This document shows, in pieces, positions 16,301 through 58,400 of a DNA stretch of 64,000 nt. The notes under the pieces were generated by a model. That model was not told where the DNA came from. It saw nothing but the letters and a program-made list of their open reading frames with translations, and did no database searches. Numbering within the stretch: position 1 is the first letter of the stretch; each line of letters starts with the position of its first letter. Both the position numbers and the translations under genes were made by a program. This DNA comes from Telmatactis stephensoni (taxonomy: Eukaryota; Cnidaria; Anthozoa; Actiniaria; Isophelliidae), in assembly GCA_029948255.1 (NCBI GenBank), contig JALIZF010001266.1:62001-126000 (forward strand), given 5' to 3'.

Positions 16301-17913
16301 ATGTACATTAAATTCTAATACTTAACCCAATTTCTTTCATTGTTGTCACTACTTCTTTGTACAACTGAGGACACAGCCATTATCTGTAGCTCCTCACTGG
16401 GTAAATGCCATACAAGGCTTCTTCTACCAAAATAATCCCTACCAAACCATAACTTATCTTCACTTTGTTGATAATACATGAAAGACCATGGTCCTTGGAT
16501 ACTGGACATGGTGTTCAGGATGTAGTTGATTGGGTCACTATCTGGACACTTGCCAAGGAGATCAAATAGCACTGACGTATCATTCTCTTCATCTGGTACC
16601 TGTTGATATTCAATGAGATTGTTTGAAACTAAAATAGAGCAGGTAAAAGAGCATACAGTGAGAAAAGTGCCTTGCATGGCAGTTTCCTCACACAGTTTCT
16701 CAATGTATGTGGTGGGCTTTACAGATTGTGTATAAACCCCAGCTACATGTTTTTAATTCTGGATGTGACAGGCTAGCCCTAGCTCATTGTCTGGATTATT
16801 ATGGTAATAAAGCAGTTTTCATGTGAGTGTGAGAGAACTCCATATATTTGTTGCTTGGTGATATGCTGGAATAAACACTGTGATCAACATCAGATTGCAC
16901 CAGATTCCATTTCATCAATCAATCCATACCATTTCCTACCAACAATACTCACCTTTATACCACCAAACACTTCACCATTCCATATCAACAATACTCACCC
17001 CTATACCACCAAACACTTCACCATTCCATCCCAACAATACTCACCTCTATACCACCAAACACTTCATCATTCCATACCAACAATACTCATCTCCATACAA
17101 TCAAACACTTCACCATTCCATACCAACAATACTTACCCCTACATGCAAACACTTCACCATTCCATATCAACAATACTCACCCTGGCCCTATACCACCAAA
17201 CACTACACCATTCCATACCAGCAATACTCACCCCTATACCACCAAACACTTCACCATTCCATACCAACAATACTCACCCCTATACCACCAAACACTTCAC
17301 CATTCCATACCAACAATACTCATCTCCATACAACCAAACACTTCACCATTCCATACCAACAATACTCACCTCTATACAACCAAACACTAATCACCATTCC
17401 ATACCAACAATACTCATCTCCATACAACCAAACACTACACCATTCCATACCAACAATACTCACCCCTATACAACCAAACACTAATCACCATTCCATACCA
17501 ACAATACTCACCTCTAAACCACCAAACACTTCACCATTCCATACCAACAAGTTACCCTGGTTGTCCTTCAAAGGCTGTGATGTAAGAGTTCCCCTAAGGT
17601 GAAGAACCGATCCAATAACTTTGAACTTGAATTCACTGTTAACTACTTTCTCTTTACATATTAAACAATCTGGTCCTCTTCTCTCAATCAGTGGCGTTGT
17701 AGAATCGACTAAAGCCTAAAAATCCAAATGCTTAAATTGTGAATAAAAAACGTATAAACTTTCTAACAAGTTAAGAGTTTAACCCCGGGAGTTAAGCTTA
17801 AACTTTAGTTTGAAAGATTGGCCATTCGATTACGTTCAATATTTTCTCACCTCTGCCAACCTTTCTTGGCAGAATTGCTTGCAGTTGAAAAGGCAAAAGA
17901 AGATTCCACACAT
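10294..17913 (-). CDS. ASNSD1: Asparagine synthetase domain-containing protein 1, ten exons, complete
   Basis: Exons (minus strand, 5' to 3'): 17913-17851, 17715-17512, 16599-16327, 15275-14485, 13855-13645, 13343-13309, 12063-11889, 11169-11102, 10888-10714, 10479-10294; 726 codons plus stop, all phases agreeing. It starts MCGIFFCLF, giving the N-terminal Cys of a class II glutamine amidotransferase domain, followed by [24 protein letters not shown] and [12 protein letters not shown]. The C-terminal synthetase part has the ATP PP-loop LFSGGIDS (exon 4), [58 protein letters not shown] and [14 protein letters not shown]. The family is related to asparagine synthetase, but its activity is poorly defined. 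At 726 aa it is longer than the human protein (about 640 aa); exon 4 accounts for much of the excess. Donors of exons 3 and 5 are the weaker GTTAAG. The stop lies inside a tandem array and the exon 2 donor inside another. Confidence 0.93.
12191..12944. mobile_element. Large foldback element in ASNSD1 intron 6
   Basis: Two arms of roughly 350 bp are inverted copies around a loop near 12545-12595. Paired landmarks include AAGGAGATACGAATTTTC / GAAAATTCGTATCTCCTTG and TTACACGTATAAGATTGCAG with its complement, out to AAAGACC...GACAAGGCGC at the ends. The right arm has a small insertion. No transposase. It lies wholly between exons 6 and 7 of ASNSD1, so it would be transcribed and could form a long hairpin in the pre-mRNA. 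Confidence 0.75.
15475..15955. repeat. 22-bp minisatellite in ASNSD1 intron 3
   Basis: About ten imperfect tandem copies of a unit of the form GTGTCAGTAGGTGGTTGGTAAG, best preserved at 15717-15955, with outlying diverged copies at 15475-15540. The array is interrupted by a foldback element at 15545-15715. Confidence 0.75.
15545..15715. mobile_element. Foldback element, family B copy 1
   Basis: Imperfect inverted repeat: CCTGTTTTTCACCAGCAATGG and AAGCAGAAGCAAC on the left against GTTGCTTCTG and AAAACCAGGCTTAAG on the right, with an inner AGACTCAGTGTTGCATTTCTC stem. A related copy is at 31560-31712. It sits within the 22-bp array, apparently inserted into it. Confidence 0.55.
16929..17550. repeat. 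46-bp tandem array (about 13 copies) that copies an exon end and its 5' splice site
   Basis: Units of about 46 bp (forward: ACCATTCCATACCAACAATACTCACC and so on). On the minus strand each unit reads as the last codons of ASNSD1 exon 2 ([10 protein letters not shown]) followed by the donor GTGAGTATT. The functional copy is gene-proximal, with the exon ending at 17512 and intron GTGAGT at 17511-17506. Most further copies keep GGTGAGT or GGTAAGT; three read GATGAGT and have lost the GT. So intron 2 begins with a ladder of about ten potential donors. A few units carry small insertions (an extra AATC or GGCC). Confidence 0.9.
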
Positions 17914-21200: not shown

Positions 21201-24200
21201 ATGACAACAGACTGTGTTTAAACTCAAGCAGACTCTACCAGCATTTGAATTATATGATTTCCACGTGTGTTCAAGGATTGTACTTGATCACTAGCCAACA
21301 GATAAGTGATACAACATAACTTACTTGAATTTTTCTTCTGAATTAATTAATTAAAACCATTTGTAGAAATTTATTTGGTAACATGTTATTAAACATTTCA
21401 GAGAGAGGAGAGAAAGAAAGAGAGAGAGAGATCATTACTAGTAATTTCATAGTCCCATAGCAAAGCTTTTTTTCTCACTTGGAGATTAGGCAAATATATA
21501 GTGAGAACCAAAGTTTCAATTATCTGTATTGATGAGTACTGATAAGCAAGATAATCTTATAGAAAAGTGAATGTTTTACAAGACTTATAAAGTCCAAACA
21601 AATCATAATTATTACAAAGTTGCAGTAACTTAATTTTAAAGTAATCTTTCATTGGAAATATATTGTATAAAAGGCTTGAGAGTCATAATAAAGAAATGAA
21701 TTGTTTATTGCTTGAGTGGCTTACTTATTGCTCAATGCAGTCCGTGCAAATTTAAGATATATATTTTCAATTCCCATAAAACAAATAGTGAGCATTTTAA
21801 AAAGGGAACATGCAAGTAATGATTGAAGTTTTCTGATATTTTATTTCCATTTAAGGTCAATCAACATTTATTTATAATTGACTCTTCTCGTCTTACTGCC
21901 ACTGTAAGAAATATCTTCAAAAATAAAAATGAATTGGGCTTCACTAACAGAGAAAATATTATTCAAAAGTTCCTAAAAAATATTTAGCTTTAAAAAAATT
22001 CATACATGTATCTTTATTAGTTAGTCCAATGTTCAAATTTTGCAAGTTCTCTATTTTTGACAAGCCAAAATGAATTCCTTGATTGAATATATTTTTGACA
22101 TTTTGACATTCTCTAGCATAAGAAGAGTCAATTATTCATACATGTAATATGGATGTACAAGAATGTTACTGTAGCATGAGCTTTAATTTATATTAATTAA
22201 ATGATTAATAATGTATATACTTTTTAAATAGATTTAGAGTATCAATTGAAAATAAAGGAATAAATTGCTTAATACACTATGAGTGGCTTTAATGTTGTGA
22301 CAGTATGTACCTGCATTCATGAAAATATTGCAAGATCTTGCCATTATATCTTACAAGGTCTTGCCATGGCCTTACAAGATCTTATTGTAATCTTGCCATG
22401 ATCTTGCAAAGATCTTGGCAAGGTCTTGCCATGATTGTACAAGGTCCTGCCATGATCTTACAAGATCTTGTTGTGATCTTGCCATGATCTTACAAGGTCT
22501 TGCCATGGTCTTACAAGATCTTATACCAATCTTGGCATGATCTTACAAGGTCTTGGCATGATCTTACAAGATCTTGCATAAGAGTCATTAATTTTGCCAA
22601 GATTACATGATAAGATCTTTCAAGATCATTAAGGATCATCCAAGATCATGGAACAAATCTCGCAAGATCTTGGTAAGATCTTGGCAAGATCATGGCAAGA
22701 TCTTTCCAAGATCATGGCAAGATCTTTCCAAGATCATGGCAAGATCTTGCCATGATCTTGCCATGATCTTGAAAAGATCTTGCCATGATCTTGCCATGAT
22801 CTTACCAAGATTGTCAACCTGGGTTGTGAGGTGAAAATATTGAATATTTCCCATGCATAATAATAATTTGCTTCCAGTTTAATCTTGATTCAAGTTCTAA
22901 AAATAGCCCAAATGCAGGGCAACACATCAATTTCAGCAACTGAAGGCTTTTCTCAAGGTGTATACAGTAGTGAGTCCCTGGTTATGCTCTCCTGGTTTGA
23001 TAGAACACAAACACACATAGTGCAGACTTCGTATGAGTGTGAAATGGACAGTGCCGTACGTGCCATGGCCATGTCAGCTAGTGCTTGGATGTCTATAAAA
23101 ACATTTGAAATTCCTGCCGTGACCGCGTGGTGCGGTTTTCACACTTATACGAAATCTACTCTATGCACACACTTGATTGACCAGAAGATGCATGGGACTC
23201 ATAGTTAAGGTTACCAGTGATTTTGCACAAAAGTCATTTTGCACAAGTCTTTTGCACACAAAAAGACATTTCATACGAGAGTACATAATTAATATAGTGT
23301 GCACATTTTTATGAAACATTTTTGTAACAAAATGAAATAGAAAACTTGCCTTAATATGGAGTCTTAGCACAGTCATTTAAAAGTAGTGTCCATGTGGATG
23401 TCAGTAACAATACAATTATTTTACATTAGAAAGAATCTCAATGCTCCAGGGAAACAGATTCTTTTGTTCTGCCATCCAACATCACCTCTATAGTAAATAA
23501 ATTGAAAAAGATGAAAGAAATAGGAAATTCATCATAAGTGCTAGATGTACAATGTATATTGGGAATTGAAAAAAGACTCAAGAAATGTTGAGAATCACTT
23601 GGTCAGCTATGTCTCATGCTTCATTAGTTATTTTGCCTTCTTACAATTCCTGTACATGCTTTTATAACTCAAAATTGCACTGCTTTTCCATGTTCTATTT
23701 CCAACACATCCAAGAACTTTTCACTTAAATACCTTGTTACTCTCATATCTTTATTTAGGAAATAGATCCAAATTTGGGATTCACCAATTTACCTGAAGAC
23801 TACTTTGATAGTGATGGTGAGTTTTCCTAACTTAGAATTCTTTTGAGAACTTACAATTCAGCTGGTAAAAATTCCGCATGGGACAGGATATGATGCTAGT
23901 CCAGTCCCAGACTCTCTTTCTTGCCGCTCCAGGACTCGCGGAGAAAGAGAGTCCAGTATAACTTGCATGCGCATGTGCAAAATGAGCCAATCAATTAATT
24001 AATTAGTATTTTGCGAGCTTGCAATATGCAAATGTCAGTGTTTGGTAGCAGTGGTAGTGATGCGTATCGAAAAATTCACAAATACGTCTTTCACAACTGT
24101 CCATCCGTAAATGGCCTGTAACTGCTCAAACTTTGGTAAAAGATTATAGTTGGTTTTTCCAAGTGCATAGCTCACTGAATCAACAAATGGCTTTCCGAAA

Positions 24201-40499: not shown

Positions 40500-40657
40500 T
40501 GTTCTTTCATGCTTTTGTTACTTCTCGTTTAGATAATTGCAACTCCCTCTTGTATGGATTACCTAAATATTTAACTAAGCGTGTACACCACGTATTTAAC
40601 TGCGCTGCCAGATTAGTCACGCTTTCGCGTAAGTGCGATCATATCACTCCTTTATTA
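40500..40657 (+). pseudogene. LINE fragment upstream of the nested insertion
   Basis: Encodes FFHAFVTSRLDNCNSLLYGL then PKYLTKRVHHVFNCAARLVT and CDHITPLL. This is the conserved tail of the reverse transcriptase region of animal non-LTR retrotransposons. The frame stops abruptly at the outer transposon boundary (TA at 40656-40657) and resumes with IELHWLPVEQRI at 56402, so removing 40658-56403 restores a continuous reading frame. Confidence 0.88.
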
Positions 40658-40848
40658 CAGCGGTTTGCAGCGGAGCGTTTAATGCAAACTGTTTCAGCGT
40701 TTGTTTTTCGCGTTTGAACTCTACGTTGTCAGGGTAAGTTTCGATTGTTTCTAGGGGGCGGAGACTACGTTTCGCACGTGCTTTTGAAGTATTTCTCCCG
40801 TCTTGATCTTCACACTCTATATGGCAACTCAATCATCGGCTGAGTTCA
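40658..40848. repeat. Left terminal inverted repeat of the outer element
   Basis: 191 bp, ending at ...GGCTGAGTTCA. It matches the right repeat (56202-56401) except for scattered differences and a 9-bp insertion (GTGCAAAAC) in the right copy. It includes the region just upstream of the 454-aa ORF, so it probably acts as its promoter. Confidence 0.9.
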
Positions 40849-40856
40849 TCTTCACA

Positions 40857-42221
40857 ATGGCGTCAAGCAGACAGGTTCGTGTAAAAGTACGCTATGATTA
40901 CTACTCGAACAAGAGGATAACTCCGTTGTACATAAGTGAGGATGATCTGTTGAGCTTCTCCTACTTTGACTTCAAAGAAAGGTTGCTTCAAGAAGTAATT
41001 CATTTACAAAAGTTGACTACAATTAGTCGAATGACTGTAATGGAAGAAAATATCGAAGTTGATTTATCTTCTCTTTACTTCTCTGTTCAAATGAAAGAGC
41101 TGTTAGAGAAAGGACAAGACTTATCCATAAACGTTGTGGCTTGTGACTCTCCATCTGTCAATATTACTACCACAAATACAACTACATCTCACCCGATTGT
41201 TCAACCAGTTCAACAGCCGCACGCCATTCAAAACAGAGCGCAAAAATCCCTTGAGCAAGAACAGCTACTTCTCCCTGTCGAAAGATACCTTAAAAAACAG
41301 AAGTCCGTTCTTTCAGAAGTAGAGATACAGTTGAAGAACAAACAAGAACGAATGAAGAAACTTGAATCTAGACTAGGAAGTGCCGCAGAACAAAACTCTG
41401 GGTATCAAAATGCTTGCGGCCAATGTCACCTACAATTGGGCCACACTAAACGAAGCTGTTGTTTTAGTCCATGTAAGTCAGCATATTCATGTGGCATTTT
41501 GTCAAAGCACAGCAAAGAAAAGACAGAATTTGGTTCCTTGCAGAAAGAAATTGGCCACTTAAAAAAAAAGCTCGAAACAACCGGTGCAGAAATGCAAACT
41601 GCGTCAAAGGCTGCAGAAAAAGTTAGCAACTCGGTTACGAAGCGTATAGAAGATGTAGTAGTTAAAGAACTGCCCGAGAGGTATTTGAGTTTTGGAGGAC
41701 TTAGGAATTGGAAATTATTGAACAAAGACGTTGCGACAATACAGAAACTCCTCCGAGGCACTTTGCCATCGCGAGAGAATGTGAACAAGATTCTCAACGA
41801 AGTGGTTATCAAAAAAACTGAAACGAGTACTTATACTGGTAGCATGTATTCTACAGAAACCTCATCAAATAAAATATCACACCACAGGATGAGCTCGCAA
41901 AGACAGTTATTGACGGAACAATACGCAATCAACTTCCCAACTTTTCAAAAACAAAGTCAACAAATTAGCAGCCCGTCCTTTGCATGTATCTCATCCGCAC
42001 AAGAACAAGAGGACTATGAACTAGCTCTAAAGCTGCAGCGCGAGGAACAAAGTTATCTGACGAATTCAGAGTTTTCATTGAGTTGTGAAAGTTGCCCTCC
42101 TCAAGTTGGAATGCATGTTCCTGGAAAGGATGAATGGGTTGAACCAGAACCGACAGTCGATACGCAAGACAGCGAAGCCGCGAGTGTTCTCATGAGCTTG
42201 AAAGACACCACAACCTTATAG
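40857..42221 (+). CDS. Accessory ORF of the outer element, 454 aa, unknown function
   Basis: The start at 40857 (MASSRQVRVKVRYDYY) is chosen because it lies just outside the terminal repeat. An in-frame ATG at 40821 lies within the repeat, and in the right copy the equivalent ATG is out of frame with the transposase, so it is unlikely to be a shared start. The protein has an N-terminal region with a VRVKVRYDY strand, a middle coiled-coil-like section (EIQLKNKQERMKKLESRLGS), a cysteine cluster (CGQCHLQLGHTKRSCCFSPC...C) suggesting zinc binding, another helical segment (LQKEIGHLKKKLE) and a C-terminal EQEDYELALKLQREE that resembles a ubiquitin-interacting motif. It is full length and open. It is not a transposase by any motif I can see; a DNA- or host-factor-binding role is only a guess. 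Confidence 0.75.
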   Translation: MASSRQVRVKVRYDYYSNKRITPLYISEDDLLSFSYFDFKERLLQEVIHLQKLTTISRMTVMEENIEVDLSSLYFSVQMKELLEKGQDLSINVVACDSPSVNITTTNTTTSHPIVQPVQQPHAIQNRAQKSLEQEQLLLPVERYLKKQKSVLSEVEIQLKNKQERMKKLESRLGSAAEQNSGYQNACGQCHLQLGHTKRSCCFSPCKSAYSCGILSKHSKEKTEFGSLQKEIGHLKKKLETTGAEMQTASKAAEKVSNSVTKRIEDVVVKELPERYLSFGGLRNWKLLNKDVATIQKLLRGTLPSRENVNKILNEVVIKKTETSTYTGSMYSTETSSNKISHHRMSSQRQLLTEQYAINFPTFQKQSQQISSPSFACISSAQEQEDYELALKLQREEQSYLTNSEFSLSCESCPPQVGMHVPGKDEWVEPEPTVDTQDSEAASVLMSLKDTTTL

Positions 42222-42285
42222 TTTATGTTTATTGATATAAATAAGTATCCAAACATATGCTTGAACATATACTATGAGCTTGAAT

Positions 42286-42553
42286 CATGAGCTATAGGAA
42301 ACATGGTGTTTGTGTACGAGTGTGTAAGCGTTCATATCTACAGTATTATGGATCAATAAAGAACAATTTTGCAACTAGTTCAACGTCTTTTTATTACCTT
42401 TTGTGCTGTATCCCTAAAACTCCACCATACAGAGGTTGTATACCCAAAATAGTTCCATTGTGCTGCATTTCACAACTGCCAAAAGTCTTAAAAACACAGC
42501 CGATACGACGATAGTTCAGTGACTGGTACTATAAAGCAGGCCCGGTAGCCTAG
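42286..42553. repeat. Left terminal inverted repeat of the inner element
   Basis: About 268 bp, matching the right copy without visible gaps. Beyond 42553 the arms diverge, but a further shared block, CCCCCAAAACCCTGGGTAGG, lies at about 42601-42622 (and 54322-54343 on the other side). A 75-residue frame inside is identical in both copies and is a by-product of the repeat. Confidence 0.9.
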
Positions 42554-45023
42554 TCTCTCGATTAAGCAGGCCCGGTAGCCCAGCAGTGCCAGCCCGTATC
42601 ACCCCCAAAACCCTGGGTAGGAAACTTGGCCAGATCGTCCCCCAAAGCTCGTACGACTCTAGATGTGCAATGCCCTTATATGGAAGTCTGATGTGCAACT
42701 ATACAGGTATCCCGAACTTAATTCCAAGGGTATTTTTCGTGGCCGTGAGGACCTGGGTAAGAGCGTTAATGAATTCAAATATATTCAAAAGACAACCGTG
42801 GGTTTTCCCTGCAACGTGAAAACTGCGACTGTAATATAGCGATGGAATTTTTTCAAAATCATAAACTTTCAAGGTAGGGACTTCAAAAATATTGAAATTG
42901 AATTTGAAGCTTCGATTTTTGAAAGTAAAGCACACATTTGACCGATTGAACATCTTTGAATTTATTAGCAATCTGTCTTTACTGAGGAATGTTTCGCCAT
43001 TGAAAGCGCCGGCAAAGAAAACCACACTGGAGGCCTTCAAGTCGAAACTGCTTTAAGGTTGTACAACCAATTCCTATTCAAAAAAGGACTAAATCGCCAA
43101 GTCGATGTAAGACACTTCGGTGTAGAGCTAAAAGCTGCTTTCCCTGAGGTCGTTAAGAAACGACGAATGCACATCGAAGAGGGAAAGAAAACACAACCAG
43201 GTATGTGCTCAAGTTGTTTTATTGTAGAATCCTTGTAAACTCTACAGTCCTTGTAAGCTGTATTTATAATTTTTAAATGTTGCAGCATATTATACCAATC
43301 TTTTGGCGAAAACGGTCCACTCTGCCTCTGCCAGCTTAGCACAACGAATTCCGTTGAACCCAACGAACTGCTGTCAGCTACCAAAAGGTTTCTCTGCCTA
43401 CAGTCAGGAAATCCATGCAGTTTTAGCAGATGAGTTGCCCAACTGGTTCTATATATCTGAAAGCGATCAAAAAATTGAAGTTGGAACTGCCACAAACATG
43501 ACTTTTAAAAACATTAATGTATTAAAAACCGTAACTTTTAAAAAGGAAAATCTGTGTTGGGAGGCTCGTGTTCACGGCACCCTCATTCCCCGTCACCTTC
43601 TGCCAGAGTTGAAATCAAGAACGAACATAAAAGAAATTTTACTGGCGGTAAATAATGCAAAAGTCTGCTTTGGTTTGGTCAAGAAAGAATACAATGCACT
43701 TCCTGACCTAGTACATAACCAAAAAAAAGAGGCGGTGGGATGTACAGAAGACATTGTACTTGATGGCCAGGCACCCTTCAAGACAAAGCGATCTCTGACA
43801 TGCTTTGGAATAACAAGAAACGGTCCCTGCCTGTCGTGCAAAGGCATGAGGAATGCACTTGATGCTGCACTCCAGCGGCGTAAGAAACAGACCAATGAAA
43901 AAACCGTCGACCCAACATCAAGTAGTAGTACTACTAACTGGCGATTCCTCACACAGGAACAGAAAAAAGCTCGGTTTTTAAACGAGAGAAGACGGCGAAT
44001 AAATGCGGAAGAGAGAAATAAGTACTGGCAAAGAAAATATAAAGAAGAAAAAAATTTAAAAAAATTGTCTGAGGCTGATGACGAAGATATGAAAATCATC
44101 TTCAGTGAGATTGACAAGGGGGACGATTTGACTTTCCCTGACGACCCCGAGGCATCATTCTAATGGAAAATGCAGAGGGAAGTAATCCAGTCAAAAAAAG
44201 CAAAATGGCATCCAAGGTATTTCAACATGTTTGAATTAAAAGCAGTCACTCATTTGTTTAGAAATTTTCGTAATCCACTTATTTCAATTGCAGTGTCAAT
44301 TTTTAATAATGAAAATAGATAGTCTAGATAGGCATAATGTCTACATTTTAACTCATTTGCACAAATCAAATTTCAAGTTTTAATGAAAATGACATTCAAT
44401 ATTCTTAGATATATTTGAACATTTGAGAAGGATATAGTTTAGGAGATATAAACAATTTTCATTTTGAAAGATTTTACAATAAAGGCATGCATGCATGGTT
44501 TCATCTGGTTGTCAAAACATCCCAACTTTGCTGCCATTGGGAGCATTTCTTATAAAAGCTAACCATCAAAGACTATTGAAGTAATCAGATCGTTTCTAAT
44601 ATTGGGTTAATTCTTTTCATTTTCATCATAGCCTGAAATCTGATTTCTCAGTGTAAATAGATGATAAATTCCATTATCTTATGCCCATGTATATATTTCC
44701 AACCTCACTCCCCATCCCCCACACACACCCAATATACATAACATCATATTAATGCTGCAATAGAACAGTCCTTTCAACCAGATTCAAGGGAACTCACAAT
44801 AGTCTGAGGAAATTATAACTGCAGAAAGTGAATAATCTTTATTGTATATATGCCTGTTACATGCAGTTTTCATTTTGTAAGGTCATTATTAGCTAATATT
44901 ATTATAATTGTGCACTGGTGGATCTAGGGACCAATTTTTGGGGTTGCAACCCCCCCTATGAATTTAAATTAACTAACCTAACCCATTGGTCTATTATATT
45001 TCTCCATCACCTTAATGCTACAA

Positions 45024-45046
45024 CCCCCCCCCCCCCCCCCCCCCCC
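45024..45046. repeat. Poly-C run (23 bases) in the transposase intron
   Basis: An uninterrupted run of C in the intron between the second and third transposase exons seen. Likely length-variable and prone to sequencing error. Confidence 0.85.
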
Positions 45047-46799
45047 TTTGAAAAAATCCTGGATCTGCCACTGTTGTGTGATGCCTTTTTTATTATATAA
45101 TGGTTTCCATCTAGGGTTCTTGAGATGGCATTCAAACTCTGGCAACGTTCTAAACGCGGCTATGAAGAATTAAAAGAGACTGGGTTCATCAAACTACCAT
45201 CAGGCAGACACTTAAGATACATCAAGAACAAAGTGAAACAGACTCCTGGCTACCACAAACAGATGTTCGATTGGATGGTCAAAGCAGCAAAGTCTAGGAA
45301 AATGTCAGAGGCAGGATACTGTGGCTACATTGTTTTTGATGAAATGTCTATCCAGGTTAGAAATATTAATTGAACAATTTTGTACACTATTTTTGCATCC
45401 TACTATTTTGTAGCTGAGATATTGGCCAAATATGGATTAAGTATAGTTATGTTATGCAAGGTTATTTTTTCATTAAAATTAATATTTTAAGTACTACATG
45501 AATGATTGTTATGTTCAACAATGACTGATTCTGATGTGTACAATATATTTATATAATTTATCTAGAGTGACATTCAACTTCGAAAGAATGGAGACACATT
45601 TGAACTTGCTGGCATTGTGAACCTTGGTGAACTACACCAAAATATCAATCTCCTCCAAACAGGTAATTGGTAGCTTAGAGTTAAAAAATTAGACTAGGCT
45701 GCTTGGTCATATAGCTATCTTGTACCCCGAGCCAATTTGTTCTAGCTTCTTTGCCAGTGCTAGAAAAAGAAGACTCTGGGAAAATGAAATTTTCTGGTCC
45801 AATTTTTGCACTGACCAAGAAGAATGAAGGCTCTGGGTACAAGGTTGAGCTATTAATAGCTAGTCACACATAATAGTTAGAGAAAGTAACTGTGAACAAT
45901 TGAGCTCCCAATGGCAGCAAATAGCTCATTGACTAGCTATAGAGGTGATTCCATGATTTCATTATTATATTTGTTGATAATTTTTTTTCCAATGTATTTC
46001 TTGATTTATTTCTCTAGGTGAAAATAAATTGGAGATGGCATCTCATATTTTACAGTTTACATTCATGGGCTTAGAAGGATTTGAATGGCCATACGCTTAC
46101 TTCCCAACATCAGAAATAGACCCACTGACGTTGCATCACCTCTACTGGGAGGGTGTGTGGGCTCTAAGTGAACATGGTTTCAGTTCCTACATGGCAATTT
46201 GTGATGGTCCCAGTGTAATAGAGGATTTATACTTAGTCATTTTGAAAATGAGAATGCAGCTATAGACTCAGACTTCACGATAACAAGCCCATGCACTGGT
46301 GAGCCTCACGTCTTCATGATGGACCCCTCGGTAAGCTAAGTAAAAAAAATGTGTTAGATGGTTTCATGTTACCTTCATGTGTCATTAATGCAGATATAAT
46401 ATACCAGCTGGTATATTATATCTCTCACAATGCAATGTTATGTGAGGATGCTTGGCAGACATGCAGTTTTGAAAATGTCCAGGGTTACTGCAATTTTCAA
46501 AATCATGCGAACTCAGACATCCAAACACTCAACTGGTTTTTACCGATTTATCTTCCGTCAATTAAAATTAAAAATGAAAAATACAAAAGCTAACTAAATA
46601 TCAAAATCATATTTAGCTGTTCTAAATCGTCTAAAGATCGTTTTCAGTCATTTGGTAGGTTTTTAGGGATATTTATGAGTAGTTTTCTGGTGTTTTGTTT
46701 GAAGTGGGCGGAAGCGAAAAACCAAATTCCAACGGACTGTTTGAAGGTCAAAGTTCGCATGATTTTGAAAATTGCAGTAAATAAGGTAGCCATAAATTA

Positions 46800-46985
46800 A
46801 CTCGGGAACTGATTTCATACCCTAAAAGGTATCTAATGACACATTTAATGTTTTTTATATTTGTATAATCTTGTATACTGTTAGAAAACTGACCCTAAAG
46901 GTAAGGTGTCAAATCAAACCCTAAAAGGTACACGGGGGTCTCATGTTTCGCCGAGCATCCCCATCAAGGGGAAAAATTCATTAAA
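46800..46985. repeat. Fragment of the GGTACCTTTTAGGG-type interspersed repeat
   Basis: CATACCCTAAAAGGTATC, AACCCTAAAAGGTACACGGG and GCCGAGCATCCCCATC match, on the other strand or rearranged, the element at 27531-27890. It sits in the intron between transposase exons ending 46330 and starting 47041. Confidence 0.5.
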
Positions 46986-48678
46986 CCCCCTTCAACAGCT
47001 ATAACCAATGGATTGTAATTTGATTTCAATCAACTTTCAGCATAACTTTAAAAAACTGAGAAATAACATCGAAAAAAGCAAGGGAAATGAGGACTGGAAC
47101 ACGTTTTCTTAGTCACAATGGAAATAACATCCTCTGGGACCACTGGGTAAAGTGTTATAGGAGGGATGCCATCAACACAGTCAGAGTACATCACAAACTT
47201 ACTGATGATCACTTCAACCTAACCTCTGGCAGCAGAATGAGGAATTACCTCGCATTTGACATCCTAGGCGAAAGAATGTTGGAGCTTTTCGAGGTATAAA
47301 ATATAAAATAAGCTTATAATGCTTTGTTTTTGATTGATTCAGTAATTCAAAAATAAGCTTAACTTCATTTAATATTCAAGTACCAATCTAAAAAAATCCC
47401 CGAAGAATTGTGGGTATACGAAGTTCATTGAAGCTGATATTTTGCTATTGCAGATTGAAAAGACATACCTTCCCAGCAGTGAAGCGGGCATTCTGGACTC
47501 CTCAATGGAGTTTTTACAAGTGACAACACTTCTTTTGAAGAATTTTACATCGAAAGCACCGATAAGGTTTGCATAAACATAAGTGTTTTTGTTTTTTCAA
47601 CCTACTCTGTCCTATCCTTCATGTGCAATTGCGCATGCGCGCTTTTTGCGAGCCGCGTTTGTTGGGAACCAAAAATTATAATTTTTTTCCAATTATAAAA
47701 CAGATCCCTCGACGACTCAAGATTCATTGAAAATTCGTCAGTTTTACAGTGGTTAGTTGACTGGCAAACACAAGTGCAATCCACACAAGGATTAAGGGAT
47801 GGCCAGAAAAACAGGATGTTTATATCAACCAAAACAATGTTCGATATGCAGTCTATGATCCTTGGCTTCCGAAAATATTGTCAGATTTTATTTATGAAGT
47901 TTCCAGGCTGTGAGATTACCCCATCGAGAACTAACCAAGATCGTCAGGAGTTGTTCTTTGGGCGCCAAAGAGCTCAAGAGGGACAGAATGAAAATCCAAC
48001 AGAACTTGCATATGGTAGGTTAACAATTTTCAGTAACTTAAGTTATTACCCGGGGTTATTATCACTTTGTTTGCCGAGCAAGGATTAAGTGTGTTACCCC
48101 TATATATCTGATGTAGTCAATCGAATTCAATCATTCGACTGCATTATATAAATATAAATTAATTTATACTTATAATTATTTTGTATTCCTTCACAGGTTC
48201 CAACATCAATGCAATTGTACACATGTCAAACTATAGTATTGCTAAAGGGAATTGTTCTTAAAAAATGTTCTAGCAATTCAGGTATGGTCATTATCAATTC
48301 ATAACTAACAAAACTATGTAAAATTATTATTATTACTAATTAATTAATTATATATAAATTAATATCTGCAGAGGATCTTAAAGAGTGGGGGGGCATCTGA
48401 ATATGCAAAAATGGAGCTGCATGGAATGGTTGGAAAATGTATAAGGCAAAAAAAAAAAAAAAAAAGAAAAACAAAATATGAGTCATCCTGTTTTTAATGT
48501 CAAAAGTCATAACATTTGCAGATTTACTTACAATATCAGTTTGTAATGTAACTATGAATTCTATATGTTTATATAGCTTGATTTTAATAGCCTGTGTGCA
48601 GCCGTTTATTTACCCGTAATAGATTTTAACCGTTTAATTTTTTGTAACATCATTACATGTAAATGTTTCCTGGTGTCA

Positions 48679-51600
48679 TTAATTGTTAAGTGCTTCTTTG
48701 TCTTTTTTCTTTTTACGTTTGTGCCAACTATCAATTTGTGATACATGGACTGCAAATTCTGCAGCCCTTGTCATGTTGAGCTCCTTGTTTGGCTGTTTTT
48801 CATGGTCCTCTAGAAGTAACTCTATCTGTGCAGGAGATGGTGTAAACTTTGGCCTGCGCTTGTTGGAAGTATTTTGGTTGTTGATTTCAACTGGCTGCAC
48901 AGTGCCATCATGTGACATAGATGCAACCGCTTCATTCTGAGGTTGGTTGTTGGCCTCAATGGCTGTAGCACTGTTAGTTCTGTTGGTTTGAACTGGCTGT
49001 GCAGTTCCATCATGCAATGCAGGTACATCCTCTTCGTTCTGAGGTTGGGCATTGGCCTCATTGGCTGTAGTAGCACTGTTTCTGTTGTTGTCCACATCAA
49101 CATCTGGAAAATCATCGATTTCTCTTTTGTTTTTGTGGTTTTCTCTAATTCTTGAAAATCTTGCTGCTTGCACTCTATCAGGACGAGGAATTCTTTCACT
49201 GGCCACTATTTTATCAGTTAATATTTGTGATAGTACCTTCTTAGTTTTAGACAAGAATTTTATGTCATATAACCTAAATATACAATGGAGGTCTGCTTTG
49301 CTCAACTTCTGAAACACAGCACTGCCTGTGACTGCTTTTGATTTCAATATTAGGTGTGAACTTATGTAATTTTCTGTCTTGTCATTGACGATGTTCTCAA
49401 TTACAGACTTATCTAATCTATCATTAGAACTCTCAGCTTTCCTTTTTCCACTTTTGCCTTCCACTTTTTTCCTGTGGGCCATTTCCTTCTTTCTATTTAG
49501 CTTTTGTTTCAGAGTCTTGACATATTCTTTGCTTCTCATATTTAGGTAACATCGAAGAATCCTGTTGTATGTCAATCCTGCAACTTCTGAGGACACTGCT
49601 TTACCTAAAAGTATACAGTTACAAGAAATTATAGCTGCTTATTATTTAATCTTTGGTGGAATTGGGTAATCATGCATTCCTGTTCATTGATATAAAATTA
49701 TCTAATAGAATTGACAATTATACATTAACTTTTATGTTTACTTAATTGTTATCAAAAAGCCTATTAAGACAATTTCACTTCATATAATTTAGATTTTTGA
49801 AACTTGTATGTAAATATAATATCTTGCTGTACATATATGTATATATACTAGTTATACCATGCTTAGAGTGGATACCATAGAAATCCCGCATCACTTGATT
49901 TCTATTGTACACAGAAGGCTTAGGGTGTTATACAAAGAAAATACAAGTGACAAGTGGGATATTCCATGGTGTGCCACGAGAAAGCATTGTATAACTATTT
50001 TATCCCACACCATAGAAAAATACAAATGCATGATGGAAGGAAGAGTGGAATACTTAACGAAATATACAACGGCTTTCCTGCATTCTGATTGGAATCTGTT
50101 TTCTATGGTGTACATAGTATATAGTACATGTTTTTAACTTGCTTTGGGATTGCAGTTGATTCTGAATCACAATCAAGACAATTTTACTTTAGTTTAGTAT
50201 TTAGGTTTTTGATACTGGTTTACATGCATGTGTGCATAATGCATGTCAACTCATTGTAAAGAGTGAGTACCTACATACAACTGTATGTGTGTAGTGAGTT
50301 GTGTGCAATTATTATTGAATGTATATCAAGCACTTTACAGAATGATAATGTTCTTATTGTACATAAATTACATGTTCATAGTATAACATATTTAATATAT
50401 ACCTTGTTGCTCTAGTACATTTGTGACAGTCTGTGGTTCACAAGTAGCTTCTGATGATGCATCCATTGGGATTGCAGTAGATTCTGAATCACAATTAAGA
50501 CAATTTTACTTTAGTTTAGCATTTAAATTTTTTGATACTGGTTTACATGCATGTGTGCATAATACATATATCAACTCAACGATCATTGTAAAGAGTGAGT
50601 ACACACATACGTGTGCAGTGAGTTGTGTGCAATTTTTATTGAATGTATATCAAGCACTTTACAGAATGATAATGCTCTTATTGTACATATTGCATGTTCA
50701 TATAGTATGGTATATTTATATACCTTGTTGCTCTAGTACATTTGTGACAGTCTGTGGTTGACGAGTAGCTTCTAATGATGCATCCATGGGGATTGCAGTT
50801 GATTCTGAATCACAATTAAGACAATTTTACTTTAGTTTAGCATTTAGATTTTTTGATACTGGTTTACATCATGCATGTGTGCATAATGCATATATCAACT
50901 CATTGTAAAGAGTGAGTACATACATACATACATATGTGTGTAGTGAGTTGTGTGCAATTATTATTGAATGTATATCAAGCACTTTACAGAATTATAATGT
51001 TCTTATTGTACATAAATTACATGTTCATAGTATAACATATTTAATATATACCTTGTTGCTCTAGTACATTTGTGACAGTCTGTGGTTGACGAGTAGCTTC
51101 TAATGATGCATCCATTGGGATTGCAGTTGATTCTGAATCACAATTAAGACAACTTTAATATAGTAATTAGTATTTAGATTTTTTGATACTGCAGGTTTAC
51201 ATGCATGTGTGCATAATGCATGTCAACTCATTGTAAAGAGTGAGTACCTACATACAACTGTATGTGTGTAGTGAGTTGTGTGCAATTATTATTGAAAGTA
51301 TATCAAGCACAGATATGATGTTCTTATTGTACATATTACATGTTCATAGTATGGTATATTTATATACCTTGTTGCTCTAGTACATTTGAGACAGTCTGTG
51401 GTCCATGATTAGCTTCTGACAATACATCCATCAGGACTGATTCTGAATCACAAAGATTGTTTTTTTATAAATAGATTAAGGTGTATATAGAGAAATTTAT
51501 AAACAATATGAAAAATCAATATTAAAAGAAACATTGAATTAATACTTATGAGTTGATCTAGATACAAATTAAATTAGAAGTAAAAGTGATGACATTTTGC

Positions 51601-54131
51601 TTCATTTTTTAATACATACCTGCTTGTTGGCCAGCTATCAATTGTGACCAAAGTTGTAGTAGGGTGGGGTCTTTTTTGATTTTTTCCCTTGATAATTTCA
51701 CAGCATCCCATTTATGCCTGTCAGCAGTTTCTGTTGTGAAATGCTGACAGCATATTTTTTCCAATTTCAATATGAATCCAAAGAACATGTCTGTTACATG
51801 TACCAAACCACCATGGTTATATCTCTCAATGTGGCTGAGACTGTTGGGGTATTTTGTGTGCTCATAAACAGCTGATCTTGTTTTGGTAACACTCTCAAGA
51901 ACATCTTTAATTTCCCTCTCCTTTTTAATTCGCTCTCTAACGTTTTTGGAAGATGAGGAGAAATTCAAGCGGATGTATCTTGAGGTAGCCCCAAGCTCTT
52001 TGAAAATTACCCATCCAGCCAGGTATCGGATCTTGGACTGGCTTTCTTTGGAAAGCACAACAGTCGATGGTGGTGTGGGATGCTTTGTTGCAATTTGCTT
52101 TGTTGCTAGAGCTAGTAAATGAAATGGTCAGTGACACTCAAACTGTAAACAATTTGTGTTTTTACTAGCTAGGATGTATTAATTAATTAAATTAATTGCT
52201 TAAGTGTATTTGAATTACTTCTATTTTGAGACTTTGAAATACTTAAAAATTTAATAAAGTAAGTGTCATGGTTCAATACTTTTGTAAGACCGCTGTAGAG
52301 TTTTATATTTCTATAATTTTATCTATTTATCCCTTACTCCCCTTACCACATACTATAATTGATAACTATGAAGTACTACCTTATTAGTAGTCAAGTACTT
52401 ACCAATCATGCAGTCATGCATGGTTTGTATTACTTTAAATAGCAATTTCTGATGGAGTGGCTGATTACTGGATATTAGGTTGTGGTTTTTTAAAACCTCG
52501 TCCCACTTATGCTTCATTTCCTTGGATGTCATTAGTTTAAACACTTGGAATGAGTGACCACTCCAATATTTTTTATCGATTACATTAATCGATTCTGGAT
52601 TGTTGGATGGGGTTTTCACCACCACTTTATCCAGCTCCATCCATACATAGCTCAGAAACATTTGTAAAATTTGTAGAATTTCTTTGTCAAAGTTTAATTT
52701 GGAGCACAGGTCTTTGGTTTCTTGTGAGTTGAGGGGATTTTCAGCAATGCTCTTTAACATTTTAGATACATTGACATGTGTTGGTAAGGGGGCTATATTA
52801 TCCCAGTTGCATGGTGGAAGCTGGTCTGTGGGTTGAGTTTGTGGTTCGGTGACTCTCAGACCTTCAATTTGAGTGTCTATCTCCGTCTCGATACAGGTTC
52901 TCATCGTTTTCATCTTACTGTAGAAATCGACTACTTTGTGAGGGGGAGGAGGAAAAGAAATGTCCTGTCCAGGTAGAACCTGCAACCCTGCCATGGTGCG
53001 GCATCTTGACAGGGCAACGTAGGCCTGGCCAGGAGCAAAGATCCTCTTCAAACTCACCACAGATTTCTCCACTGTGATGCCCTGTGCCTTATGCACAGTC
53101 ACAGACCAGCCTAGATCGAGAGGTAGTTGACGTCTGGTGGCCTGGACATGCCCTTCGCGTAGCACTTCAAAGACGGTTTCCTTCATAATGACTTTCTGTC
53201 CATCTTCAAACTGAACCAGCGGAAACTTTCCAACAAAATCCAACACCTTGCCTCTCTCTCCATTCACCAGCCCATGATTGTGCATGTTCTTTACCAGAAT
53301 CACTCTTGCTCCGACCTTCAAACTTAAACTTTTTGGAGCTTGGCAGCTGTTTAGCAGCTCCTTCTTTCCGGTGTCTTTCGACGTGTAAACTTTCGTTTCT
53401 CCATTAACGTTCTCGAGCAATTCGCCGTTTTTTATCGCGACATCGTCGCGACGTGAATATATATAGATGCTTTCATCATCTGTGTTTATTGGTCTTTTTA
53501 ATCTTTGGAGGATAGAGTGTGTTTGCCAGGTTATTTTTCCGGAACGCACCTCGGACAACAGAAGTAAATATTCTGGCTCGTTTTGTCGGAAAACTGTTGT
53601 CAGTTCAACGTTGTGTTTGATCACCACTTTCCACAGTGGAGATTCGAAGCAGTATACAGCCTCCGCCTCCTCATCGTTGGGTACAGGCGGGAGTTGATAA
53701 AAGTCTCCGAACAAGACTAGTTGAATGCCTCCAAATGGCGCCTCTATGTCTCTCACCTTCCTCGCGACAAATTCAAGCTTCTCGAAGAGTGTAGCGTCCA
53801 GCATGGACACCTCGTCGATGAAGAGAGTTTTGCAAGCTTTCCATCGTTCGCTGGCTTCAGTATTTGCTACGACTTTGTTTAACAATTCATAACAAGAGCC
53901 ACCTCCAACACCGATTCCTGCAAAAGAATGGAGCGTCGTGCCGTTCACGTTCTTCGCGGCCCGTCCTGTTGGTGCTGTTTTAAACGTCGTCCCTTCGCCG
54001 TTTATTCGTGATTGTTGATTAAAGGCATGGCCTAGTAAAAACGATTTACCAGTACCTGCCTTCCCAGTTAAAAATACGCTTTCCTTTCATTGTAGCAAAT
54101 TTAGAAATAGTTGTTGTTCTTCGGATAACAT
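48679..54131 (-). CDS. PIF1-family helicase of the inner element, multi-exon, one premature stop
   Basis: Exons (minus, 5' to 3'): 54131-52403, 52111-51620, 51442-51368, 51132-51052, 50804-50724, 50483-50403, 49604-48679; 1,154 codons, every internal junction in phase 1. Motifs in order: Walker A GKAGTGKSF, TGRAAKNVNGTTLHSF, Walker B FIDEVSMLD, GDFYQLPPVP, FRQNEPE, LGWSVTVHKAQGITVEKSVV and YVALSRCRTMAGLQVL, so a complete superfamily 1B 5'-3' helicase core. After a second exon of unknown fold come four short repeat exons, then a basic region, a duplicated QPQNE..HDGT.QPV motif and a C-terminal stretch (FTPSPAQIELLLEDHEKQPN...EFAVHVSQIDSWHKRKKKK) resembling a homeodomain-like helix-turn-helix. 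One TGA at 54087-54089 falls at codon 15, just before Walker A. Probably a transposition or replication accessory of the element. Confidence 0.87.
50403..51442 (-). repeat. Tandem repeat of a phase-neutral exon within the helicase gene
   Basis: Units of roughly 310-330 bp each hold one exon of 81 nt (75 nt in the 5'-most) flanked by GATTCAG|A and AACAAG|GTATAT. The exon encodes ESTAIPMDASLEATRQPQTV then TNVLEQQ. Copies are at 51442-51368, 51132-51052, 50804-50724 and 50483-50403. A fifth, truncated start (TGATTCAG|AATCAACTGCAATCCCAA) is at about 50161-50144. Exon length is a multiple of three and both junctions are phase 1, so copy number can change without shifting the frame. Confidence 0.88.
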
Positions 54132-54369
54132 GTCGCGGAGCGCTGATCACAAAGAAGTGACACATTTTTGACTCATCCCACCCCTACAATGTCATCAAAT
54201 TTCCATATATGTAGGGGTAGGGCAGTTATTTTTTGACCTTTCGCGGTCAACAGGATACATTGAATAATGCCTATTGTGTTTTCGGGGACGTGATTGGCTG
54301 TCACCTAGCAACGGCGAATTCACTTCCTACCCAGGGTTTTGGGGGATTACGGGCCAGGGCTTGATCCGG

Positions 54370-54637
54370 CTAGGCTACCGGGCCTGCTTTATAGTACCAG
54401 TCACTGAACTATCGTCGTATCGGCTGTGTTTTTAAGACTTTTGGCAGTTGTGAAATGCAGCACAATGGAACTATTTTGGGTATACAACCTCTGTATGGTG
54501 GAGTTTTAGGGATACAGCACAAAAGGTAATAAAAAGACGTTGAACTAGTTGCAAAATTGTTCTTTATTGATCCATAATACTGTAGATATGAACGCTTACA
54601 CACTCGTACACAAACACCATGTTTCCTATAGCTCATG
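54370..54637. repeat. Right terminal inverted repeat of the inner element
   Basis: Inverted copy of 42286-42553, with no difference seen across the 228-bp stretch I compared through its reading frame. Next to it lies the helicase gene, whose start is about 240 bp inward. Confidence 0.9.
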
Positions 54638-55099
54638 CTTGAATATGAGCTTGAAAGACATTACAACCTTATAACTAATTATTGATAATGAGTATCCAAA
54701 CATTGAACAATACTAAGTTTTTTGCATTGCAATTTGCTATGGTTTAGTGGTTTCACTGCTTTGCCATTGTTTTAATTATTGTAATTTGTTTGAGCATAAT
54801 GATAGATCAAATTGTTACTGTTTTATCTTGTTAATATTATTTCAATAAAGTTACGTTTGTGATTCAGTTGTAATTATGTCTCACTTGACTCTTGGTTTGC
54901 ATCTGCTGTTACAAGAATTGAGGTCAATTGATGTTGTTGTTTATTTTACAAATATTCATAATGAAATACCTTGAAAAATCTCTTTTAAAAGTATTCATCA
55001 GTACTTTGACATTCGTACGAATATTGATTTAACGTAAGATATTACATGTACAAAATCATCAAATGATTTTAGAATACAATAACGACACACGTTAACATT

Positions 55100-56188
55100 C
55101 TAGGCATTTACATCGATGTATCCAGTAATGTGAAAAAAATGTCTCAAGTCAGCTAGAGTTATATAATCGATGGCCTTGTAAACGGAATCAATAATATCAT
55201 CATTTGTCAGTTGTCGGAGCCTGTAGCTCATTATTGTTTTCATCTTTCCAAATACATATTCCGTAGGGTTAAAGTCTGGGCTGTAAGCAGGCATGTACAC
55301 AAGTTCAATGTTCAGATCGTTCAAAAAATCACCCAATATTTGTCCGCCTTCATTGTGATGTATTGCACAATTGTCCAACACTACAACATCGCCTACTTCT
55401 AAGGTCGGCCTGCCTGTAAGTGGATTGAAAGAGTTGTATGCTTCGTCAAAAAAACGAAGAAATTCCAATGTGTTTGATGGACCATCTACTGTGTTTACAT
55501 ATCCAATCCCAGTGAGTCCACACATAACATTCACAGTAATATTGCTTGTCTCACAATATCTTCTCACTTCAACTGCTCTTTCGTTTACAGGTGCATGACC
55601 ATAGATAGGCATTCCATTTTTTGGTAATTTAACTCCGCATTCATCAAAATATTTCAACGAATATGGATCTCTGTTGTACAAGTAGTCAACAAAAAGTTGA
55701 GTATACGCCATATTCTGAATCGTGAATCGTTCTTGAGCAATTTGAGTAACTTTTTTCAAAGAATACTTTTGGCCGCTTGGTAATCTTTCTCGTACAGCGC
55801 GACTTATGGCTGATACAGATACAGAACCGTTGGGAAGGTCGCCATAGTCGTATAGCACATCTGCGATGTCCGAATAAGAAATGGACGGTTTCTGTGTCTT
55901 TAGGGTCTCTATCAAGTGCCAATCGCCGTCGGATAAGCTGCTGTTTGCTCCTCCTTGACGTTTCATGGGACTTAACGTGTTATTTTGACAATATTGGTTC
56001 CATATTTTTGAAACCACAGCAGACGATATGTTAAGGCTTCTAGCGATTTCTGTCTTAGTTCCTGGAAAACATCCGGTCACAGCGTTTCCTCCACTTTTAA
56101 GTATTTTGTCAATGATGTTCGTTCTAATGTCCTGAGACAAAGCTTTTCCAGGACAATAAGTTCTTCCACTTTTACTGACTTTCCACAT
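55100..56188 (-). CDS. Tc1/mariner (IS630-like) DDE transposase of the outer element, 362 aa, intact
   Basis: Starts MWKVSKSGRTYCPGKALSQD just inside the right terminal repeat. The N-terminal half holds two helix-turn-helix-like segments (TEIARSLNISSAVVSKIWNQ and ISYSDIADVLYDYG...SAISRAV), the paired-type DNA-binding layout of the family. Catalytic residues are visible as YFDECGVKL (first Asp), VVVLDNCAIHH (second Asp) and YMPAYSPDFNPTEYVF (Glu), with 37 residues between the second Asp and the Glu, so a DD37E type. Length and frame are as expected for an active enzyme. The TA target duplications at the element ends agree with the family. It is convergent to the accessory ORF at 40857-42221. 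Confidence 0.93.
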   Translation of the reverse strand: MWKVSKSGRTYCPGKALSQDIRTNIIDKILKSGGNAVTGCFPGTKTEIARSLNISSAVVSKIWNQYCQNNTLSPMKRQGGANSSLSDGDWHLIETLKTQKPSISYSDIADVLYDYGDLPNGSVSVSAISRAVRERLPSGQKYSLKKVTQIAQERFTIQNMAYTQLFVDYLYNRDPYSLKYFDECGVKLPKNGMPIYGHAPVNERAVEVRRYCETSNITVNVMCGLTGIGYVNTVDGPSNTLEFLRFFDEAYNSFNPLTGRPTLEVGDVVVLDNCAIHHNEGGQILGDFLNDLNIELVYMPAYSPDFNPTEYVFGKMKTIMSYRLRQLTNDDIIDSVYKAIDYITLADLRHFFHITGYIDVNA

Positions 56189-56201
56189 TTTTGTAGCGAA
56201 G

Positions 56202-56401
56202 TGAACTCAGCCGATGATTGAGTTGCCATATAGAGTGTGAAGATCAAGACGAGAGAAATACTTCAAAAGCACGTGCGAAACGTGCAAAACGTAGTCTCCG
56301 CCCCCTAGAAACAATCGAAACTTACCCTGACAACGTAGAGTTCAAACGCGAAAAAGAAACGCTGAAACAGTTTGCATTAAACGCTCCGCTGCAAACCGCT
56401 G
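56202..56401. repeat. Right terminal inverted repeat of the outer element
   Basis: 200 bp, inverted copy of 40658-40848 with a 9-bp insertion and a few substitutions. It lies directly upstream of the transposase start codon (56188), so it probably contains its promoter. Confidence 0.9.
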
Positions 56402-56680
56402 TAATTGAATTACACTGGTTGCCTGTAGAACAACGTATTATCTTTAAGATTTTATTGATGACATATAAGGCTCTTAATAGCTTAGCACCAGGCTATATAG
56501 TTGATTTACTGGAACCCTATGTTCCACGTCGTACATTAAGATCATCATCCAAGCTAATGCGGTTAGTTGAGCCTTCATACAATCTTAAGACATATGGCTT
56601 TAGAGCTTTTTCTGTCTGTGCTCCAAGGCTGTGGAACAGTATTTCCTTAAACATAAGACAAAGTGATTCACTAATAATAA
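56402..56680 (+). pseudogene. LINE fragment downstream of the nested insertion
   Basis: Continues the frame broken at 40657: IELHWLPVEQRIIFKILLMT, YKALNSLAPGYIVDLLEPYV, YGFRAFSVCAPRLWNSISLN, IRQSDSL. This is the conserved region after the reverse transcriptase domain in animal LINEs. The frame is interrupted again near 56670-57025 by unrelated AT-rich sequence. Confidence 0.88.
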
Positions 56681-57132: not shown

Positions 57133-57647
57133 AGTCCTCAGTTGAAGTTTATCTTAAAATTCTTTGTTTTTTTTTTCATTTTAGGTTATAATAGAGTACA
57201 ATTGTTACGAGAACACTTAGTCATATATTTTTTTCTTGTTTGTTTTTATATGTTTAATTTTCTTATTATTGTACAGCGTATTTGGACTGTTAGGAAACTA
57301 CGCTATAGAAATAAATTATTATTAAAGTAATTTTCAATTTTTCCATTTGAATGAAAATCATTTGGACGGAAGACCCACGGACCCATGACCTCTGAGATAA
57401 AGACAACAACAACAACAAAAAAACAACAACAACAAAAACAACAACAACAACAACAAATCAAAATCGCTCGAAACGCAAGAATAAAATTTCCGGAAGTAAA
57501 TTTTATGATTTTACCATAGCAACTGCAAAACTGGAAGTATGTTTGGATTTGCAGATCTTCGAAGGAGAGCCTCTTTTTGAGTTAAAAGTTATTATTTTCT
57601 TATTTTTTCATAGTCGAATCGTGTTTTTCTGAATTGCTTTAATCAAC
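57133..57647. other. Spacer with AAC microsatellite, possible helicase promoter side
   Basis: AT-rich DNA with an AAC/ACA repeat at about 57401-57455 and a 5' flank to the helicase fragment. No gene recognised. Confidence 0.4.
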
Positions 57648-58400
57648 ATGAGTCTAAACTTGAAACAGAGAGAGGCTATTTACATTTGTAAAGCTGGACA
57701 TTCTTTACTTCTGACGGGCATGGCCGGCTCTGGAAAATCCTTCTTGCTCAAGGCGATTGCAAAGGAGCTAATCAATTGTGGTAAGAGATGTCAAATAACT
57801 TGTACAACGGGAAATGCTTGTGGGAACTTTGACAGTGCTAAAACAATTCATTCGTTTACGGGTATTCGAGACTGTAGGGGAACACCAGCTTCTATTTTAG
57901 AGCAAGTTAAAAACAATCCGTTGTGTACAAAACGAATCAAAGAAATAGATGTGCTTCTCATTGATGAAATTTCTATGTTCAGTCAAAGAACTCTGGAAAT
58001 CATCAATTTCATAACACAGGAGATGCGTGAGAGCAACGTACCTTTTGGAGGTATACAGGTTGTTGCATCTGGTGATTTTTTCCAGTTACCTCCGGTCCCA
58101 AACTCTTACGACAATGGGAATTATTGCTTTCAAAACGAGCAACTGTGGTCAATGTTGTTTCCACACACAGTCGAGCTGGATACGGTAGTTCGTCAAAAAA
58201 ATCACAATTTTATAAAAGCCATCCATCAGGTAGCACAAGGCCAATTGGACGACCAAACAGATCAATATTTCTCTGCACTTTGTACACCATTGGTTAACGA
58301 CTTACAGGACCAAATTCATACACACACGTTTCTCTATTGTTCAAGCTCACTAAGGAACGTGCATGTCAGTACAAGAAAAGAAAAGCTGACTTTCGTGTAA
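57648..58400 (+). pseudogene. N-terminal fragment of a second PIF1-family helicase (250 aa)
   Basis: Starts MSLNLKQREAIYICKAGHSL and carries Walker A GMAGSGKSFLLKAIAK, TTGNACGNFDSAKTIHSFTG, Walker B VLLIDEISMFS, VPFGGIQVVASGDFFQLPPV and VELDTVVRQKN. The core then ends: residues after FLYCSSSLRNVHV run into a stop, and the second RecA-like domain (HKAQG, VALSR motifs) is absent. It is similar to but clearly distinct from the helicase in the inner element, so it is not a duplicate of it. Either the rest lies in an unrecognised exon or the copy is truncated. Confidence 0.85.

Follow-up and report, generated by a model that had tools for sequence, protein, structure and literature searches.

The window, by which we mean the whole stretch of 64,000 nucleotides that was analysed, corresponds to positions 62001-126000 of contig C713 of Telmatactis stephensoni (C-numbers denote contigs of the assembly searched, 483.5 Mb in 1782 contigs). 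It contains, at 42286-54637, a transposon that carries two convergent multi-exon genes between its ends, a P-superfamily transposase gene on the plus strand and a PIF1-type helicase gene on the minus strand (Table 1). These two genes, the terminal inverted repeats (TIRs) and the 7-bp target duplication had been proposed in the initial annotation, and all of them were borne out: the two TIRs agree at every position and CTTGAAT flanks both. Inward of both TIRs follows a gapped, weaker inverted repeat. A 267-bp query from the TIR gave at least 26 matches at no fewer than 15 places in the genome. Both termini are readable at eight places of this family, the window included, and exact 7-bp duplications, each of another sequence, were found at six of them; at C68 and C215:100482 both termini are readable and no exact 7-bp duplication is present.

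Table 1. Features of the P-type element and its surroundings in the window, and further two-gene elements on other contigs (the coordinates of the latter carry a possible one-base error).
Feature	Position	Strand	Remarks
Outer, interrupted transposon	~40654-56405		Hosts the P-type element; ~200-bp TIRs, TA at both outer ends
Outer-transposon ORF	40788-42221	+	477 aa
Target duplication, left copy	42279-42285		CTTGAAT, 7 bp
Left TIR	42286-42553	+	268 bp, starts CATGAG; 268/268 identical to right end
Transposase gene	42842-48260	+	P superfamily, ~10 exons; broken in window copy
Transposase exons	42842-42873 (proposed start), 42969-43200, 43287-44217, 45111-45355, 45567-45661	+	
Transposase exons, continued	46018-46332, 47041-47293, 47454-47567, 47700-48014, 48198-48260	+	
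VFDEM	45332-45346	+	Predicted first catalytic Asp motif of RNase H fold; aligned with Drosophila P transposase 6p5a
NQDRQELFFG	47933-47962	+	Predicted last catalytic acidic motif; aligned with Drosophila P transposase 6p5a
Helicase gene	48679-54131	-	PIF1-type, seven exons, 1155 codons; model from splice signals alone
Helicase exons	54131-52403, 52111-51620, 51442-51368, 51132-51052, 50804-50724, 50483-50403, 49604-48679	-	
Helicase exon 1	52403-54131	-	SF1B core and conserved C-terminal extension
Helicase exon 2	51620-52111	-	Conserved domain around K[IV]R-x-x-x-x-W, in both helicase groups
Four small helicase exons	50403-51442	-	Tandemly duplicated, period ~325 bp, phase 1-1
Last helicase exon	48679-49604	-	~308 codons, lysine-rich
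Right TIR	54370-54637	-	268 bp
Target duplication, right copy	54638-54644		CTTGAAT, 7 bp
Outer-transposon ORF	55100-56188	-	362 aa; Tc1/IS630-type DDE-transposase-like, judged by eye
C102 element	C102:239221-251053		TIR 82%; no matching duplication; both genes inside
C1010 element	C1010:10713-25755		C102 family, found as second member; GTCAAAG duplication; both genes inside
C1106 element	C1106:52447-64757		TIR 620 bp, 100%; GTGTGTT duplication; both genes inside
C54 element	C54:660775-671129		TIR 733 bp, 100%; GGCAGGC duplication; both genes inside
C69 element	C69:901735-915283		TIR ~617 bp, 100% with one-base length difference; GATATAT duplication; both genes inside

The P-type element interrupts the outer transposon, and this supports its reading as a discrete insertion. 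At the insertion site the flanks have an ~80-bp direct repeat in common.

The transposase gene of the window copy is damaged by a TAA at 44161-44163 and, at three places (near 42988, 46209 and 47090), by the break of the frame through a single base. The same exons are open in the sister copies C359, C717 and C1048, as far as each of these reaches, and the short first exon, which is a proposal, fits the frame of C359 and C717. Matches of the window exons to the Pfam families TNP-like_RNaseH_N and _C fall short of the curated cut-off. Among the 7991 candidates scored in a protein search with the transposase there was one relative, P0121 (60% of the query covered, at 47% identity), which is 49% identical to the window transposase when the latter is read with its sister copies. 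P0121 itself exceeds the curated cut-off for both PF21787 (1.2e-13) and PF21789 (8.5e-6). With a two-sequence profile, the Drosophila P transposase 6p5a was matched at E 6e-5, and it was the one solved structure to appear at E up to 1. Over the stretch of the GTP-binding insertion domain P0121 has no match to PF21788, yet the profile aligns to 6p5a across it. A single-sequence structure prediction of P0121 reached a mean pLDDT of 33. From the Pfam scores of P0121 and the profile match to 6p5a, the transposase is classed by sequence as being of the P/THAP9 RNase H type, in keeping with the original assignment. No THAP domain was found with Pfam at E up to 1 in two N-terminal exon frames (42969-43238 and 43270-44163); some P-superfamily members are without the THAP zinc finger.

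The seven exons of the helicase gene join in frame at GT-AG sites, and every intron is of phase 1. The helicase scored 5.4e-36 for PIF1 and 2.7e-10 for Pif1_2B in Pfam, and 92% identity was seen with a protein named Exaiptasia diaphana (P0001). The helicase had initially been called full, a term that does not quite suit the window copy: a TGA at 54087-54089, immediately ahead of Walker A, interrupts its reading frame. In the C1048 copy the first exon is an open frame of 596 codons. The C-terminal extension of exon 1 is common to P0002, P0003 and P0006, whose ORFs end at about the same place as the exon. For the domain encoded by exon 2, ten sequences from the two helicase groups described below were aligned and showed five invariant columns. 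Pfam and PDB profile searches gave nothing usable for this domain and a protein search aimed at it gave no match; it may resemble the C-terminal region that certain P transposases have, a likeness on which we base no claim. A fifth, truncated copy of the small exon lies near 50167. Exon and intron together are duplicated in tandem over 50146-51448, apparently in a different copy number in C1048 (L059); the number can vary without a break of the frame because the exons are of phase 1-1. The last exon had no Pfam match above the cut-off.

As both genes carry lesions, the window copy is probably not autonomous. In the window element, C1106, C54 and C69, the two TIRs of each element, 268-733 bp long, show complete or near-complete identity, even though the window copy has several coding lesions; this suggests that the elements moved recently or that their ends were homogenised.

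A second copy of the window family with both genes was found on C1048, where window positions 44893-54637 follow in order, with the same gene order and adjoining the same end, until the contig starts inside the copy. Blocks of 92.6-99.4% identity align the two. About 310 bp present in C1048 and C359 are absent from the window copy, and ~255 bp near 48387-48641 are missing from C1048. Two shorter copies, each with intact ends and an exact 7-bp duplication, have lost internal sequence. In C717 (1.9 kb), position 43167 is joined to 53635 between intact ends; the 5' parts of both genes are retained and helicase exon 1 is still joined to the right end. In C359 (5.8 kb), 47459 is joined to 54339 and the helicase is lost. 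On C240, helicase sequence (51908-54275) lies 6 kb from an element end, and the 10 kb preceding this stretch gave no match. Beside the single end on C122, ~19.8 kb held no match of at least 80 bp, and beside that on C492 the only such match in ~18 kb was a 303-bp stretch with 77% identity to intron sequence at 46480-46775. At the remaining TIR places, of which ~1.5 kb per side was examined, end sequence alone was matched. The copies without a helicase are an internal deletion (C359) and pieces in which end sequence alone was matched, and not a series of full elements that consistently lack this gene.

Both genes have many relatives in the genome. The window helicase gave at least 98 matches (from the best 76 of 531 candidates, which were scored) and P0121 at least 84 (from the best 82 of 237). 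When merged by contig, strand and 8 kb, the matches listed formed 69 helicase and 49 transposase clusters; the hits on C73, C559 and C651 are near-equal and some contigs may be allelic duplicates. Within 12.5 kb, 18 transposase/helicase pairs were present among the matches listed, 17 of them convergent; in the eighteenth, the window transposase is paired with a different PIF1 fragment that also lies in the window. Random placement (uniform, with contig ends ignored) yielded a mean of 0.17 pairs and a maximum of three in 2000 rounds. Chance clustering of two repeat families was rejected, since 17 convergent pairs were seen against 0.17 expected. Among the matches listed, 32 of the 49 transposase clusters are without a helicase match within 12.5 kb, one of them being the deletion derivative C359. 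Other P-type transposases, at C182, C197, C230, C564 and C212, occupy one uninterrupted frame of 1010-1015 codons; here, too, the 12.5 kb around them held no helicase match among those listed.

DNA searches for end partners were started from C102, C1106, C54 and C69, with the best 40 candidates considered for each, and in all four an inverted partner was found beyond the transposase. Together with the window family, five TIR families thereby enclose both genes in elements of 10-15 kb, and each family has at least one element with an exact 7-bp duplication; among the five further full elements, four (C1010, C1106, C54 and C69) have one. The TIRs start with CATGAG in the window family and elsewhere with CAAGGGCACTAG or CACAGG, all beginning with CA. 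Shorter copies exist in all five families, at about 15 places or more for the window and C69 families and at several tens or more for the others. The repeat into which the C69 element is inserted has some twenty copies elsewhere among the matches listed, 95-99% identical, and the matches to it start exactly at the right end of the element, as expected of a fresh insertion. These elements carry a convergent P-type transposase and PIF1 helicase inside TIRs, and of this two-gene anatomy, taken alone, we are very confident.

PIF1 helicases are typical of Helitrons, and this genome has many other PIF1 matches, so the helicase could in principle belong to a separate element, for instance a Helitron, that landed by chance in the space from the transposase to the right end. 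This is extremely improbable: C1048 has both genes in the same order, helicase exon 1 adjoins the right end between the intact ends of C717, and the same convergent gene order recurs in four other TIR families. A Pfam scan of ten window ORFs reported no Helitron-type domain.

The history of the helicase was studied in a tree of 74 rows, which include 24 of 121 listed proteins, 21 helicase loci of the genome and 28 viral loci (L029 fell below the length limit). Group A (SH-aLRT 98) contains the window, C1048, P0001 from Exaiptasia, P0005, P0002, P0003, P0006, C54, C102, C1010, P0008 and C527. Group B (SH-aLRT 99) contains C1106, C69, C203, C246, C73 and nine loci without an adjoining transposase match. 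P0001, P0008 and P0121 are known as protein sequences alone, without gene neighbours; the GoldUCD tag in the eukprot names of P0008 and P0121 would point to Aurelia. A single clade of A and B was rejected (AU p 0.0018), with the groups named after the tree had been seen and some branches being long. With the cores of the two groups thus falling into separate clades, one single capture of the helicase is not supported. On the simplest readings, a two-gene lineage of old age would have exchanged its helicase core, or the core would have changed fast in group B.

Viral contigs contributed 29 loci that match the helicase core alone, residues 1-401 at most. L006 stands beside group B with C450/C837 (SH-aLRT 82), and the place of L001 and L016 is next to the cellular rows as a whole (86); none of the 28 viral loci in the tree falls inside group A or B. 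The window helicase by itself had no match in the viral contigs, and the TIR pattern and P0121 had none in viral or prokaryote contigs. A viral origin of the helicase was rejected, as the viral loci are core-only and lie outside both groups.

Selection was assessed from pairs of copies. Between the helicases of C102 and C1010, dN/dS was 0.29 (binomial p 1e-16) over 751 codons, a few of them perhaps intronic. The window and C240 gave 0.40 (p 0.0007), a ratio that in part reflects decay, since C240 carries stops. Too few differences separate the window from C1048 for a firm result (p 0.06, not significant), and the transposase comparisons offered four and one differences and gave no signal. Judged by codon comparison, the helicase appears to be under purifying selection, clearly so for C102 and C1010. 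The position of group A cores nearest to host-like PIF1 (SH-aLRT 97, in a joint group of 30 rows) would suit a captured host gene carried as a passive passenger of one family. We consider this very improbable in view of the five TIR families, the long open frames, the ratio of 0.29 and the C-terminal domain common to the ten aligned sequences. Instead, the five TIR families, the 7-bp duplications and purifying selection on the helicase where tested show that the two-gene P-type lineage is old, diverse and repeatedly mobile, and not the product of one chance capture.

How these elements relate to described ones can be stated for several systems, as far as the available text of the sources goes. 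Like P elements and THAP9, they have an RNase H-type transposase related by sequence, and like the zebrafish element Pdre2 (CATACCTGTCAAC) their TIRs begin with CA. Their target duplication is 7 bp, whereas it is 8 bp in Pdre2 and Drosophila P, and their TIRs measure 268-733 bp against 13 bp in Pdre2. They further differ from P/THAP9 in their size of 10-15 kb, in having a PIF1 helicase as a second gene and in that THAP was not found in the two N-terminal frames scanned.

Internal deletion derivatives are known for Drosophila P, and the window family resembles it in having them too (C717, C359). Helitrons also encode a PIF1-family helicase, as is generally known, whereas the present elements have TIRs, 7-bp duplications and a P-type transposase.

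Accessory helicases occur in other DDE transposons: the available descriptions give RecQ for KolobokH and Kolobok-1_CCri and a helicase for the DNA transposon AcademH. The likeness is that of a DDE transposon lineage with an accessory helicase. Here, in contrast, the superfamily is P, the helicase is encoded by a separate convergent gene and it is of PIF1 type, not RecQ as in KolobokH; AcademH is compared by its description only. P thus joins Academ and Kolobok among the DDE superfamilies with a helicase-bearing branch. In the literature covered, outside which most subscription papers lay, no P-superfamily element with a PIF1 helicase is described, which is weak evidence of absence. The proposal of a new class of large P-type transposon stands for the whole lineage, in which the helicase lies inside the ends of five families and is conserved in the one that gave 0.29, and not for the window family alone.

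P elements are textbook cut-and-paste transposons that gain copies through borrowed host gap repair, the host refilling the P-type excision gap from the sister chromatid. According to the available text of one report, break-induced replication in yeast requires PIF1, and when POL32 is absent PIF1 is needed for the efficient repair of a gap induced by a P element, which measured 14 kb in the assay (PMC8951532). In the lineage described here the transposase would excise the element and leave a gap of 10-15 kb, in which the element-coded helicase would drive processive D-loop or bubble-migration synthesis. The gap would be refilled from the sister chromatid or the homologue; the donor site would keep its element while the excised copy inserts elsewhere. 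The extra helicase domains would serve as a tether between the helicase and either the transposase or the ends of the element, and interrupted synthesis would give internal deletion derivatives and short end-only copies. We infer that the helicase probably acts in donor gap repair, and the two-gene anatomy together with this gap-refilling mechanism is, with fair probability, the best explanation of the findings as a whole.

Unlikely, in our judgement, is a service of the helicase in another step, be it unwinding of the transposon ends, clearing of replication barriers or a replicative copy-out route. The near-identical long TIRs of the window element, C1106, C54 and C69 would fit a copying or homogenising step as well, whereas the target duplications agree with P-type transposition of the ordinary kind, as do the derivatives with internal deletions. 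With donor gap repair as the role of the helicase, our results suggest that this P-type branch brings its own gap-copying tool, which would let the lineage reach 10-15 kb with two genes. The limits on size and copy gain of P-type transposons thereby become directly testable.

A more far-reaching reading, which we put forward tentatively and with some doubt, sees here an undescribed, ancient branch of the P superfamily with its own repair-synthesis helicase, in which cut-and-paste transposition would be made effectively replicative through self-driven refilling of the donor. This branch would use two deeply different PIF1 cores and one lineage-specific C-terminal domain.

The available account of Hydra reports an expansion of PIF1-like genes, with an orthogroup of 204 and 130 genes in two species; as a guess, the two-gene P-type lineage might explain part of it. 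In the window itself, another PIF1 helicase ORF (57633-58400, plus strand, 255 aa) lies 3 kb to the right of the element, with 39% identity to the element's helicase and a similar match at C700:89830-90429. It may be part of another two-gene element running out of the window. Large repeat arrays, tandem or palindromic and based on units of 40 bp, 22 bp, 46 bp and 11 bp, occupy window positions 9488-10467, 15675-15985, 16864-17550 and 19557-22836.
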